Below are positions 33,958-41,297 of a stretch of DNA of 41,297 nucleotides, piece by piece (position 1 is the stretch's first letter; each line of letters begins with the position of its first letter). The stretch spans positions 1-41,297 of the forward strand of contig JADLDY010000006.1 of the NCBI GenBank assembly GCA_020846435.1, read 5' to 3'. A program made the position numbers and the translations under genes. The notes under the pieces were generated by a model. That model saw nothing but the letters and a program-made list of their open reading frames with translations. It searched no databases and had not been told where the DNA came from. This DNA comes from Deltaproteobacteria bacterium (GTDB lineage Bacteria > Desulfobacterota > GWC2-55-46).

Positions 33958-35130
33958 ATGTACGACGCCATTGTCGTCGGCCTCGGTCCTGCCGGGTCGA
34001 CCGCAGCCAGGGGCCTTGCCATGGCCGGGCTCCGTGTGCTCGGAGTGGACAAGGAGACTTTCCCGAGGTACAAGTCCTGCGGCGGCTGCATATCCACGAA
34101 GATAGAGCGCATCCTCGACTTCGACATCTCCTCGGCCATAGAGGAGAGGGTAAAGGGCGCGACCTACACCTACAAGTCTGGCCGAACCATGGACATACTC
34201 TCGGACAGGCCGGTCGGCTACAATGTCATGAGGGACACCTTCGACGCTCTTCTTCTCGCCAGGGCAAAAGAGGCTGGCGCGGAGATAATAGAAGGGGTCA
34301 GGGTCGTAAAGGCCTCTGACAAGGGGCGCTCCGTCGAGGTCAATCTCGCGGACGGCAGGACGTTTGAGGCCAAGGTCCTGGTCGGTGCAGACGGCTCTTC
34401 CGGCTTCATCGGCAGGGAGCTTTTCGGCTTGAACCCCAAAGAGGCGGCTGTCTCCATTACGGCCGAGGTGCCGCTCCCGAAGACAGAGCGCTCTTATTCC
34501 GAAAAGCTCTTCATTGATTTTGGAAGCGTCCCCTACGGTTACGGCTGGATATTCCCTAAGGAGAACCACCTGTCGGTCGGCATCGCGGGCGACGCTCTGA
34601 AGGTGGGCGGCAGGATAAAGGATTACTGGAGCGAGTTCGTCAAGAGCCACGAGGCGTTAAAAGGGCTCGACCTCAGCCAGAGGATGGGCTGGACAGTTCC
34701 GATATACTATGACGGAGCGTCCCCATCGGTGAAGGGCAACGTGATACTCACCGGAGACACGGGCCACCTGGTCGACCCGTTTCTTGGAGAGGGCATATAT
34801 TACGCCATACGCACGGCGAAGGCCGCCGCGTCCGCAGTGATCGAGAATATCAAGGCGGGCAATGGGCTGGAGGCCTACCAGGCGTGGCTGGAGAGCGAGA
34901 TACACCCTGAGTTCAACGCGGCTGGAAAGCTTTCCGACCTCGTCTACAACCACCCGAGGCTCTGGTACAGCATACTTGAGAAGGACCCTGAGATAATGCT
35001 CAGGTTCTACGATGTTATACGGGGAGAAGAGGACTGCGCCGTCTTTTACAGCTGGGTTATGGGCAAGGTAAAGTCAAAGCCCTGGAAGATCCTTCGGAGG
35101 TGGGTGGAAAGCAGGCTGCTTCCCTCTTAG
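33958..35130 (+). CDS. Geranylgeranyl reductase family FAD-dependent oxidoreductase
   Basis: FAD flavoprotein (390 aa) of the family that includes geranylgeranyl reductases and related membrane-lipid or quinone-modifying enzymes. The dinucleotide-binding motif is VVGLGPAGSTAARGLAMAG (residues 5-23), followed by the family Cys segment FPRYKSCGGC. The second FAD motif is VILTGDTGHLVDPFLGEGIYYAIRTA (about residue 262 on), with the characteristic GEGI. VLVGADGSSG is the middle motif. It has no signal peptide, so it acts at the cytoplasmic face. Reduction of a prenyl chain is the usual role; the exact substrate is not known. Its start abuts the ferritin-like gene. Confidence 0.88.
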   Translation: MYDAIVVGLGPAGSTAARGLAMAGLRVLGVDKETFPRYKSCGGCISTKIERILDFDISSAIEERVKGATYTYKSGRTMDILSDRPVGYNVMRDTFDALLLARAKEAGAEIIEGVRVVKASDKGRSVEVNLADGRTFEAKVLVGADGSSGFIGRELFGLNPKEAAVSITAEVPLPKTERSYSEKLFIDFGSVPYGYGWIFPKENHLSVGIAGDALKVGGRIKDYWSEFVKSHEALKGLDLSQRMGWTVPIYYDGASPSVKGNVILTGDTGHLVDPFLGEGIYYAIRTAKAAASAVIENIKAGNGLEAYQAWLESEIHPEFNAAGKLSDLVYNHPRLWYSILEKDPEIMLRFYDVIRGEEDCAVFYSWVMGKVKSKPWKILRRWVESRLLPS

Positions 35131-35174
35131 TTTTTCATATCCCGCTATTAATCGCGTTCAGCAGGAGGTTTTCG

Positions 35175-36269
35175 ATGAAAGTTCCGAAAATGGCCTTTGC
35201 TACCCTCTTTTTTGTTCTCACCTGTTTCCTCTTCGCGCCTCTTTCTTTCGCAGGCGATGAGACCTCTCCGGCTCCGATGCTCGCGAGCCCGTCTTCCCAG
35301 CAGCAGACACAGCGCCCCTGGCTCGGCGTGAGCATACTTGAAGTCGACGAGAAGGTTGCCCGCCACATGGACATCAAGGCCACAAAGGGGCTTGTCGTCG
35401 TCGATGTGGTCCAGGGCGGGCCTGCTGACGACGCTGGATTGCGCCAGGGGGATGTCATCGTCAGGCTCAACGGCCGCGAGATGACCGATTTCAACGAATT
35501 CATAGAGAAGGTGCAGGAGGCCGGAATAGGCGCCTCCGTTCTGCTCGGCATTGACAGGGCAGGCAATCCTGACGAGGTCGAGGTGACGCTCGAGGCGATG
35601 CCTGCTCCAGCTCCAATGGTTAGCAAAGGCTACGGCCAGGGCATGGGCCAGGGATACATGGGAGAAGCGTGCCCGCAGCACGCGAAATCGCTTGATAAAA
35701 TGTGTCCCATGGGGCGCGAGTGCCCGATGGGCGATGATTGCCCTGTAAGGTCAGGCAAGCCGTGCGCCCAGTGCCAGGCCGGTATCAGAGGCCAGGGTTA
35801 TGGATACGGACACGCGTGCTTGGACAGATCCGGGCGCGGCCGCCATTACAGGGGCGCGGGCGACGGCATGATGAGGCATGGCGGGACTTACAGCCCGATG
35901 TATGGTAAAATAAAGATGGCTATAAAGGGCATGGACCTGACGTCCGACCAGAGGGCAAAGCTCTCGGCCATAAGCTCGGAATACAGGAAAAAGGCCATAA
36001 AAGCCATGGCTGACGCAAAGATAGCCCACATGGAGCTCCATGAGATGCTTGCCTCTGACCCGGTGAGCCTTGAGAAGGTCAGGTCAAAGGTCAACGATAT
36101 AGGCAAGAGAAAAGCTGATATGATGCTCTCCGGGATAAAGGCCCTTGAGGATATCAAGAAGGTCCTTACCCCGGCGCAGAGGAAGTCGTTGAGAGACACG
36201 CTGTCAATGGACTCTTCTGACACGGAAGAGGACATGGACGGCGGTGAAGCGGCCGAAGGGGCTGAATAG
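35175..36269 (+). CDS. Exported PDZ - Met/Cys-rich - Spy/CpxP-like fusion protein
   Basis: Predicted periplasmic protein (364 aa). ATG 35175 follows AGGAGG and begins a signal peptide (FATLFFVLTCFLFAPLSFA). A PDZ domain spans about 47-140 (RPWLGVSILEV, GPADDAGLRQGDVIVRLNGRE). A Gly/Met/Cys/His-rich linker (about 155-215) follows, with seven Cys residues in CPMG-type steps (MCPMGRECPMGDDCPV) that could bind metal. The C-terminal 120 residues are helical with two LTxxQ-like motifs (LTSDQRAKL, LTPAQRKSL) as in the Spy/CpxP/zinc-resistance family. An acidic tail closes it. A role in envelope or metal stress is inferred; this domain order is not one recalled from a characterised protein. Confidence 0.85.
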   Translation: MKVPKMAFATLFFVLTCFLFAPLSFAGDETSPAPMLASPSSQQQTQRPWLGVSILEVDEKVARHMDIKATKGLVVVDVVQGGPADDAGLRQGDVIVRLNGREMTDFNEFIEKVQEAGIGASVLLGIDRAGNPDEVEVTLEAMPAPAPMVSKGYGQGMGQGYMGEACPQHAKSLDKMCPMGRECPMGDDCPVRSGKPCAQCQAGIRGQGYGYGHACLDRSGRGRHYRGAGDGMMRHGGTYSPMYGKIKMAIKGMDLTSDQRAKLSAISSEYRKKAIKAMADAKIAHMELHEMLASDPVSLEKVRSKVNDIGKRKADMMLSGIKALEDIKKVLTPAQRKSLRDTLSMDSSDTEEDMDGGEAAEGAE

Positions 36270-39935: not shown

Positions 39936-40205
39936 TCAGCCGACTGTCTTGCCTGTGAGAACAAGCTCGGCGATCTTGACGAGCTTGAGCCTTGTCTTTC
40001 TGCTCGATTTCATCAGGAAGTCGTGGGCCTCTTCCTCGCTCATGTTCTTTTTGGCGACTATCGCCCACTTGGCCCTCTCGATAACGTCTCTTTCCGCGAG
40101 TTTCTGCTTGAGAGAGGCTACTTCAGAGTAAAGCTCGAAATACTGGCGGCAGACGTTTGAACATACGTCTGCCCTGGGCGTAAGGTCCTTTCCGCTGCTG
40201 CTCAT
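39936..40205 (-). CDS. Stand-alone ANTAR-domain RNA-binding regulator
   Basis: Small protein (89 aa) consisting almost only of an ANTAR domain. ANTAR proteins bind paired hairpins with AxxGxx hexaloops in nascent mRNA leaders and prevent terminators from forming. The start is ATG 40205, after TGGAGGTATCAAA. Residues 20-45 form a probable coiled coil (YSEVASLKQKLAERDVIERA), and 35-85 give the ANTAR pattern (ERDVIERAKWAIVAKKNMSEEEAHDFLMKSS, then KLVKIAELVLTG). Most ANTAR proteins carry an N-terminal receiver or sensor; here there are only about 30 residues with a CSNVC pair (Cys15, Cys19), a possible redox or metal switch. It faces away from the long cytochrome leader that begins 300 bp to the right. 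Confidence 0.82.
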   Translation of the reverse strand: MSSSGKDLTPRADVCSNVCRQYFELYSEVASLKQKLAERDVIERAKWAIVAKKNMSEEEAHDFLMKSSRKTRLKLVKIAELVLTGKTVG

Positions 40206-40278
40206 TTTGATACCTCCAGATGGTATAGGGTACACGGGATAAAATATAGCTCAGGTGCGTCGTTATTAGGTCCCTGTC

Positions 40279-40293
40279 CCTATGCCAGTGGCA
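40279..40293. promoter_or_regulatory. Small palindrome in the ANTAR-cytochrome divergent region
   Basis: TGCC-AGT-GGCA lies within an AT-rich stretch between the two divergent genes. On the minus strand a TATATT -10-like hexamer lies nearby (about 40243-40248). This is a candidate operator or ANTAR promoter region, with weak support. Confidence 0.3.
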
Positions 40294-40475
40294 ATAGTTA
40301 TATTTTGTATTGTAACTAAATAATGTCAGAGCTGATTTAAAAAGTCAAGGATGAAAATACACTCAACCAGACGGCGCAGGCCTCCTGGACGGCTCATTCT
40401 ATTTTATAACTATCCGATTTACATGCGTATTTTCCTCTTTAAGCAGGTAAAATTAAAAAATCCTAATTTTCCCTA

Positions 40476-40504
40476 TTGACATTTTTAATGGTTTGGACTA
40501 ATAT
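40476..40504 (+). promoter_or_regulatory. Sigma70-type promoter of the cytochrome operon
   Basis: Perfect TTGACA (40476-40481), 17-nt spacer, TAATAT (40499-40504). The start near 40511 gives an untranslated leader of about 445 nt. Confidence 0.88.
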
Positions 40505-40510
40505 GAGAAC

Positions 40511-40954
40511 TATCAGAACCATTAGATTCCGCGGTAACACTGCAAGGGCTCAAGCGGAAAGCAAGGTTGTTTGAAGTTCTGGTTCTGAAGTTTCTCTGAC
40601 ACGACATAATCCTTCGCTGGAAAGCTCATGATGGGCTTCCGGCCCCGGAACAAGCCCATGGATGCCTTGGTTACCGTCTAAGACGGCGATCAAGGCTTTT
40701 TGATTTTCTGGTCAACTGACTTAATACCGCGACGCAAGCTCATGGCGGGCTTCCCGGGCGGGAAATGCAGAAAGCTGTCAAGGTGGCAGCTGGAGCAAAA
40801 AAGCCAGGGCATCTGTTTCAAGGCGCCCTGGAACTTTCAGCCGACAGGCTGGAGGGCCGGAAGCGAGCCGATGGTGCGCTCGACAAGCCGGTAAGGCCAA
40901 GCTGCCTGGCGAAACTAAAAAAAGTTTTCTAACATGTGGAAAGGAGATTCACAA
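40511..40954 (+). ncRNA. Long structured 5' leader, candidate riboregulator/antitermination element
   Basis: The leader contains (i) an 8-bp stem TCAGAACC (40513-40520) / GGTTCTGA (40581-40588). It also has (ii) TTCCGC/GCGGAA (40527-40532, 40554-40559). Next is (iii) a duplicated module at 40622-40650 and 40736-40765, made of an AAGCTC/GGGCTT hairpin running directly into a TTCCSG/CSGGAA hairpin. There is also (iv) an intrinsic terminator at 40664-40707, and (v) a long-range 12-bp pairing of 40532-40547 with 40665-40676 that would block the terminator. Finally there are (vi) further hairpins at 40773-40791, 40805-40831, 40838-40851 and 40864-40882, several with AWGGYG-type loops. The GEMM consensus was not found by eye. 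Confidence 0.6.
40664..40707 (+). terminator. Leader-internal intrinsic terminator
   Basis: GCCTTG (40664-40669) pairs with CAAGGC (40691-40696) and CCGTC with GACGG around a TAA loop, with wobble pairs between. TTTTTGATTTT follows. It lies about 150-195 nt into the transcript and about 250 nt before the start codon, so it would stop transcription prematurely unless countered. Confidence 0.85.
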
Positions 40955-41297
40955 ATGAAAAGATTTCTTACACTCGCGCTCGCAGTAGCTTCAGTTGGCT
41001 TCATCGCGGTAGGCACCGCCTCCGCTGTTGACACCTATAACGACGGCGACGCCGCCAACGGCATCGGTAACTCGAGGCACAACCTCGGAGGGCTCGGCGA
41101 GCACATCACCACCGCCTCCACCACCGAAATCTGCATATTCTGTCACACGCCTCACCACACCAACACCACTAACAACCTGAAGCCGTTGTGGAACAGGGGC
41201 ACCCAGGCTCCCGCGTCCTTCACCGCCTATGGCTCTACCATAGCCGGCAACTCGGTAGCTTCTTCCGACATCGGTTCCACCTCGCTGGCCTGCTTGA
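40955..41297 (+). CDS. Exported multihaem c-type cytochrome, 3' end cut by window
   Basis: Start of a periplasmic or surface c-type cytochrome; 114 codons are visible. AAGGAGA (40941-40947) precedes ATG 40955. A signal peptide (KRFLTLALAVASVGFIAVG...ASA) is followed by DTYNDGDAANGIGNSRHNLGG. The first haem site is CIFCH (in EICIFCHTPHH), with a nearby HNL His and a TPHH His that could be the sixth ligand. The last visible residues SLACL are probably the start of a second CxxCH cut by the window edge. The pattern is common in deltaproteobacterial multihaem cytochromes that work in anaerobic or extracellular electron transfer. Haem number and role cannot be read here. Confidence 0.88.
   Translation, partial: MKRFLTLALAVASVGFIAVGTASAVDTYNDGDAANGIGNSRHNLGGLGEHITTASTTEICIFCHTPHHTNTTNNLKPLWNRGTQAPASFTAYGSTIAGNSVASSDIGSTSLACL

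Follow-up and report, generated by a model that had tools for sequence, protein, structure and literature searches.

A transcription attenuator composed of two small hairpins (P1 and P2), the second of which shares an arm with an intrinsic terminator, precedes the gene for an exported OmcE-like multihaem cytochrome at the end of the window (the whole 41,297-nt stretch of DNA analysed here). About 85 copies of this element occur in 35 of the 63 genomes of the class, that is, in over half of them, and in two genera the cytochrome loci additionally harbor genes encoding small ANTAR proteins without a receiver domain (ANTAR-only proteins). The function of the leader as an attenuator acting through its terminator is well supported and highly probable, while an ANTAR protein is the likelier candidate for the factor acting on it. 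The reading that best accommodates the data as a whole, an antitermination switch of the ANTAR type whose specificity is altered, is proposed with moderate confidence.

A conserved attenuator upstream of OmcE-like cytochrome genes

The features of the locus, in window coordinates, are:

39939-40205, minus strand: gene for an ANTAR-only protein of 89 aa (ATG at 40205), identified by the PF03861 profile and the AlphaFold fold
40149-40163, minus strand: codons for C15-x3-C19, a motif of the long helix preceding the coiled coil
40476-40504, plus strand: sigma70-type promoter, TTGACA-17-TAATAT, identified by motif scan; related leaders have TTGACA-16/17-TATAAT in the same place
40606-40704, plus strand: attenuator element (P1, P2 and terminator), matched by covariance model R1 (28.0 bits; E 2.4e-5)
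40619-40640, plus strand: P1 hairpin, GGAAAGCUC-AUGAU-GGGCUUCC, which covaries in relatives
40651-40669, plus strand: P2 hairpin, loop CAUGGAU, with a 3′ arm (GCCUUG) that is also the terminator 5′ arm, recognized from the sequence and the conserved core pairs
40664-40701, plus strand: intrinsic terminator (stem 40664-40696, then a U-run), recognized by folding, R1 alignment and a stem that covaries in 50 leaders
40736-40752, plus strand: second P1-type hairpin, AAGCUC-AUGGC-GGGCUU, 3′ of the terminator and within a weak R1 match (40720-40818; 10.7 bits)
40773-40791, plus strand: third P1-type hairpin, AGCUGUC-AAGGU-GGCAGCU, from the count of P1-type hairpins
40955-41297, plus strand: 5′ portion of the gene for an exported OmcE-like multihaem cytochrome, recognized by signal peptide, CIFCH motif and sequence homology

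The initial annotation had described a stand-alone ANTAR gene divergent from a promoter, a structured leader of about 445 nt with a strong intrinsic terminator, and an exported c-type cytochrome gene, and this layout is present at the locus. The promoter had been called perfect, which holds for the TTGACA hexamer, but the -10 hexamer is TAATAT (10/12 matches, with a 17-nt spacer). The leader extends over approximately 445 nt to the ATG at 40955 and is indeed structured (folding z = -3.3), with none of 100 shuffled sequences being equally stable. Its terminator is missed by a simple scan, yet is aligned by the covariance model derived from other leaders, and the stem folds alone at -16.5 kcal/mol. 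By comparison, P2 folded alone reaches only about -0.5 kcal/mol and is thus nearly unstable, suggesting that termination should be the default and that read-through needs a factor that holds P2, which is how EutV works as an ANTAR antiterminator (PMC3369931). A window-specific alternative hairpin (GGGCUU...AAGCCC; 40633-40658), formed by the P1 3′ arm and the P2 5′ arm, would block both P1 and P2 and possibly plays an anti-antiterminator role. A leader peptide was rejected by eye, since many leaders have ACG or AAG in place of the P1-loop AUG, and the indels are not in threes. Elsewhere in the window, two tandem bacteriohaemerythrin-like genes (PF01814; 36445-37376) and a gene for a PDZ and Metal_resist/LTXXQ protein with a Cys/Met/His-rich middle region (35100-36269) can be observed.

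The translated product of the downstream gene begins with a signal peptide followed by CIFCH, as the initial annotation had it, and the gene is cut at position 41297 since the window comprises the whole of contig C7. The orthologous cytochrome of the sister species G003 matches OmcE (7tfs; E 6.8e-17) and 9yuq (E 2.6e-13), with which the family shares homology in the N-terminal half, a tetrahaem composition and export. Four CxxCH motifs are present in the cytochromes of 4/5 relatives, with SLSCH at the second site in the remaining one, while the window copy is truncated. The proteins differ from OmcE in length (about 300 versus 232 aa), in that these homologues are known from sequence, and in being preceded by the attenuator leader rather than by a GEMM riboswitch. 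On the basis of this homology the cytochrome is a probable electricity-conducting filament (nanowire-type) protein. Four contig ends of the window genome (contigs C1, C7, C30 and C39 of G000) lie inside OmcE-like cytochrome genes; the similarity of the paralogues breaks the assembly, and such loci may therefore be under-represented in draft genomes.

Most OmcE-like paralogues in the family are preceded by a compact leader of approximately 100 nt, located directly after a TTGACA/TATAAT promoter. Alignment of 21 such leaders gives the consensus GGYUC-ANGRN-GGGCC for P1 and GGC-GAYGNNU-GCC for P2, with the P2 3′ arm constituting the terminator 5′ arm. Model R1 was built from these 21 leaders, with all ANTAR-only loci left out, and in a blind test it recognized the window element with the score given above, as well as those of G003 (45.9 bits), G029 (41.3 bits) and G026 (34.1 bits), while the G024 and G027 elements score weakly. 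Outside the class, R1 gave two marginal matches in 395 genomes, which is about chance level. A DNA search with the whole window leader matched only the sister species G003 over its length, and no Rfam covariance model matches the leader in the window or in 15 related loci. Among the 49 element loci examined, 40 precede a cytochrome gene and six a gene coding for a PocR-GAF-GGDEF protein, the rest being marginal or cut by contig ends. The latter gene lies downstream of secF in six genomes (L172:6056-7645 in G000:C69, L151, L159, L163, L164 and L169), and the shared leader suggests that nanowire-type cytochromes and cyclic-dinucleotide signalling are connected.

Alignment of the leaders for covariation, as the initial annotation had proposed, resolves the two hairpins and the overlap of P2 with the terminator. 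Across a set of 50 distinct leaders, 120 two-sided changes were counted in P1 and the terminator, as opposed to 47 +/- 7 in shuffled and at most 38 in slid alignments. In P2, the core pairs persist in 48-50 of these 50 leaders and are conserved rather than covarying, so that covariation support is weaker for this hairpin.

ANTAR-only genes at the cytochrome loci

The 89-aa protein had been annotated as a stand-alone ANTAR protein, and both parts of this description are borne out: it matches PF03861 (E 5e-16; 58.6 bits; cut-off 27.3) and a domain profile search detects no receiver domain in it. An AlphaFold model (pLDDT 87) places helices at residues 9-53, 57-71 and 75-84, predicting a coiled coil and the three-helix ANTAR fold, and its nearest PDB folds are EutV-RNA, EutV, Rv1626, AmiR and NasR. 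The CSNVC pair noted in the initial annotation is real and belongs to a conserved (C/H)-x3-C motif, with the second Cys present in all 13 ANTAR-only proteins and the first position occupied by C (9/13), H (3/13) or A (1/13). In the model both window cysteines are predicted to lie one turn apart on helix 9-53, which leads into the coiled coil. That Cys and His replace each other at the first position suggests a site for metal or haem more than a simple disulphide, and gating of the protein by redox, metal or haem through this motif may tentatively be entertained. Within the ANTAR gene, the CSNVC codons are covered by an inverted repeat of 12 nt (40148-40173; 92% complementary, 2-nt gap).

A search of the 63 class genomes and a 395-genome sample of the phylum identified ANTAR-only proteins in seven class genomes belonging to two genera (G000, G002 and G003; G024, G026, G027 and G029), with no further protein of this kind in the phylum sample. 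All 13 intact genes adjoin a gene for a secreted OmcE-like cytochrome, being located upstream and divergent, downstream, or both. The neighbourhood is thus kept in seven genomes and two genera, and the lack of synteny that the initial annotation had named as counter-evidence is not observed. In the sister genome G003, ANTAR gene, leader, cytochrome gene and a second ANTAR gene are contiguous. Contig C39 of the window genome opens with the final 84 codons of a cytochrome gene of this kind, a second ANTAR-only gene comes next, and from the synteny with G003 we infer that C39 continues contig C7. A decayed second cassette, consisting of a leader element, an OmcE-like cytochrome gene with stops and an ANTAR-only remnant with stops, is found in G027 (C23:41734-43188). 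A search of viral contigs with the G027 ANTAR protein gave no match, and a scan of genome contigs found a single relative, 88% identical.

Further P1-type hairpins accompany these genes. Three are observed in the window leader where 0.047 are expected, and none of 1000 shuffled sequences reaches three; two to three are present at four other ANTAR-only loci and one in G024, such that two to three hairpins stand against fewer than 0.05 expected in 5/6 of the ANTAR-only loci. The multiplication of the hairpins where local ANTAR genes have been gained provides circumstantial evidence that the ANTAR-only proteins bind them. A post-terminator tandem array of about 5.5 copies of a 26-nt unit occurs in another cytochrome leader (L190:1614-1771 in G019:C40), at a locus without an ANTAR-only gene; the unit contains GGCTCACGCAGG and resembles the P1 hairpin sequence.

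The initial annotation had proposed a local antitermination circuit. The synteny of ANTAR-only genes with a cytochrome leader and the overlap of hairpin and terminator agree with this proposal, but a strictly local circuit is too narrow, as the leader is present in 35/63 genomes and ANTAR-only genes in seven, with 28 genomes containing the element and no ANTAR-only gene.

Hairpin loops and ANTAR recognition residues

Known ANTAR targets are tandem hairpins with hexaloops carrying A1 and G4, in which P2 overlaps a terminator (PMC3369931). The leader shows the arrangement that defines canonical targets (Ramesh 2012), namely two small hairpins with P2 over an intrinsic terminator. EutV is impaired by a 14-base P1-P2 linker (PMC3369931), and in the cytochrome leaders this linker measures 8-17 nt, varying with P1 length. 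The leader does not have loops of the canonical ANTAR type: an A1/G4 hexaloop pair was found neither in the window leader nor in the other cytochrome leaders, while controls from the same genomes were positive. Read as 7-nt loops, both P1 and P2 carry A2 and G4 in 21/21 compact leaders, fitting a SANGRNK pattern with A and G one base apart, and neither the G of P1 nor the A of P2 varies in the larger leader set. Canonical A1/G4 hexaloop pairs with P2 overlapping a terminator are found in the same genomes upstream of porin and glnK genes (L171 and L177), and belong to an amt-glnK cluster that also encodes a type-M REC-ANTAR protein.

In the structure of EutV bound to RNA, Tyr164 receives the flipped-out G4 and A1 is uncontacted, Met172 is a plug proposed to set the loop size, and the RNA-contact residues are R142, K149, E160, Y164, R168, M172 and R175 (PMC8934654). 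The window ANTAR protein retains R142, K149, E160 and R175, differs in H164, M168 and R172, and as such lacks the full contact set. The ANTAR-only proteins in general are without M172 and mostly without R168, nearly all of them lacking the R168/M172 pair. Having lost several EutV contacts, these proteins might be weak binders, or might work solely in partnership with another ANTAR protein. Two types of REC-ANTAR protein are encoded in the class: type M has an aromatic residue at 164, R168 (Q in some families), M172 and R175, while type Q has Q168, Q172, K173 and N175. At the level of sequence, it is suggestive that canonical residues go with canonical loops, and altered residues with altered ones.

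Type-Q genes are also present in genomes where R1 finds no leader, and given the leaders in genomes without ANTAR-only genes, co-occurrence does not discriminate between the candidate factors. The attenuator could be real and be antiterminated by the type-Q REC-ANTAR protein alone, with the ANTAR-only proteins being modulators (through coiled-coil heterodimers) or dominant negatives. This is rather unlikely, although it would account for the leader being much more widespread than the ANTAR-only genes, and for proteins that have lost Y164/R168/M172 but retained the coiled-coil helix. The extra P1-type hairpins at ANTAR-only loci suggest direct binding there, and a type-Q gene was not found in three leader-bearing, incomplete genomes (G061, 90% complete; G001 and G015, 74-79%), with a fragment only in the leader-bearing G041.

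An element that instead acts as a riboswitch or is recognized by another RNA-binding protein, such as one linked to cyclic dinucleotides, with the ANTAR genes as neighbours having another role, appears decidedly unlikely. A diguanylate-cyclase-type gene is among the targets and the loops differ from the ANTAR consensus, but there is no match to an Rfam riboswitch, conservation is concentrated in the two hairpin loops, as in protein targets, and ANTAR-only genes are found at no other kind of locus in the class. Binding of CsrA to ANGGA-like loops is very improbable: some loops contain ANGGA, and CsrA is encoded in 37/63 genomes, including that of the window, but the loops do not consistently keep the GGA (G or A stands at alignment position 27, and any base occurs at position 28) and ten leader-bearing genomes, several of them nearly complete, lack CsrA, which excludes it as a general factor. 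A neighbourhood arisen by chance, with an unrelated ANTAR gene next to an ordinary terminator, is hardly credible, for although the synteny is confined to two genera and ANTAR-only genes are absent from the phylum at large, the 13/13 intact genes at one kind of locus, the covariation and the conservation of the element across 35 genomes stand against it.

A proposed antitermination switch and its relation to known systems

For the favoured ANTAR-type switch we infer the binding, direction of control and signal as follows. The terminator would form by default and halt RNA polymerase ahead of the cytochrome gene. A dimeric ANTAR protein would bind P1 and P2, with loop position 4 as the flipped-out G, and would stabilize the weak P2, whose 3′ arm is held in common with the terminator, thereby allowing read-through into the OmcE-like gene. 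For the majority of the class genomes, the acting factor is probably the conserved type-Q REC-ANTAR protein of altered specificity. In two genera the locus would have acquired ANTAR-only proteins of its own, as many as one on each side of the cytochrome gene or more, along with the extra P1-type hairpins, and local control by these would be independent of phosphorylation and perhaps gated by the C/H-x3-C motif.

The proposed system resembles EutV, NasR and NasT in the ANTAR protein, the two hairpins, the P2 3′ arm common with the terminator and a weak P2 that would need protein to stabilize it. It differs from them in that the local ANTAR proteins have no signal domain, the loops are ANGNN (or 7-nt SANGRNK) rather than A1/G4 hexaloops, the M172 and R168 of EutV are replaced, and the target is a nanowire-type cytochrome as opposed to nitrogen or ethanolamine genes. 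ANTAR control of a multihaem cytochrome operon had been put forward as undescribed. NasT controls nap (including napC) and nos in Bradyrhizobium diazoefficiens (PMC6759348), and ANTAR control of respiratory electron-transfer genes is therefore not new in itself. That regulator is released by NasS in response to nitrate, while an ANTAR-only protein and a nanowire cytochrome are involved here, and a search of the open-access literature found no report of ANTAR control for nanowire cytochromes, nor of ANTAR-only proteins.

The known RNA control of such cytochromes in Geobacter is by cyclic-dinucleotide riboswitches, with GEMM-I cGAMP/c-di-GMP riboswitches preceding the cytochrome genes. These are likewise structured leaders governing extracellular cytochromes, but the leader described here has no Rfam sequence or structure match and has the hairpin-loop architecture typical of protein targets. 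A conserved attenuator absent from Rfam and located before dozens of OmcE-like genes provides a concrete handle on the control of nanowire-type cytochromes outside Geobacter. It is conceivable, though this goes well beyond the attenuator itself, that a lineage-wide ANTAR regulon of nanowire cytochromes uses a new A2/G4 7-nt loop code, and that in two genera receiver-less ANTAR proteins sense metal, haem or redox directly via C/H-x3-C and feed back on electron-transfer cytochromes. If so, the ANTAR loop code would not be fixed, with A1/G4 serving nitrogen and the shifted pattern electron transfer within the same genomes, and antitermination would have a new mode of gating in receiver-less ANTAR proteins that carry a conserved ligand-like Cys/His motif.
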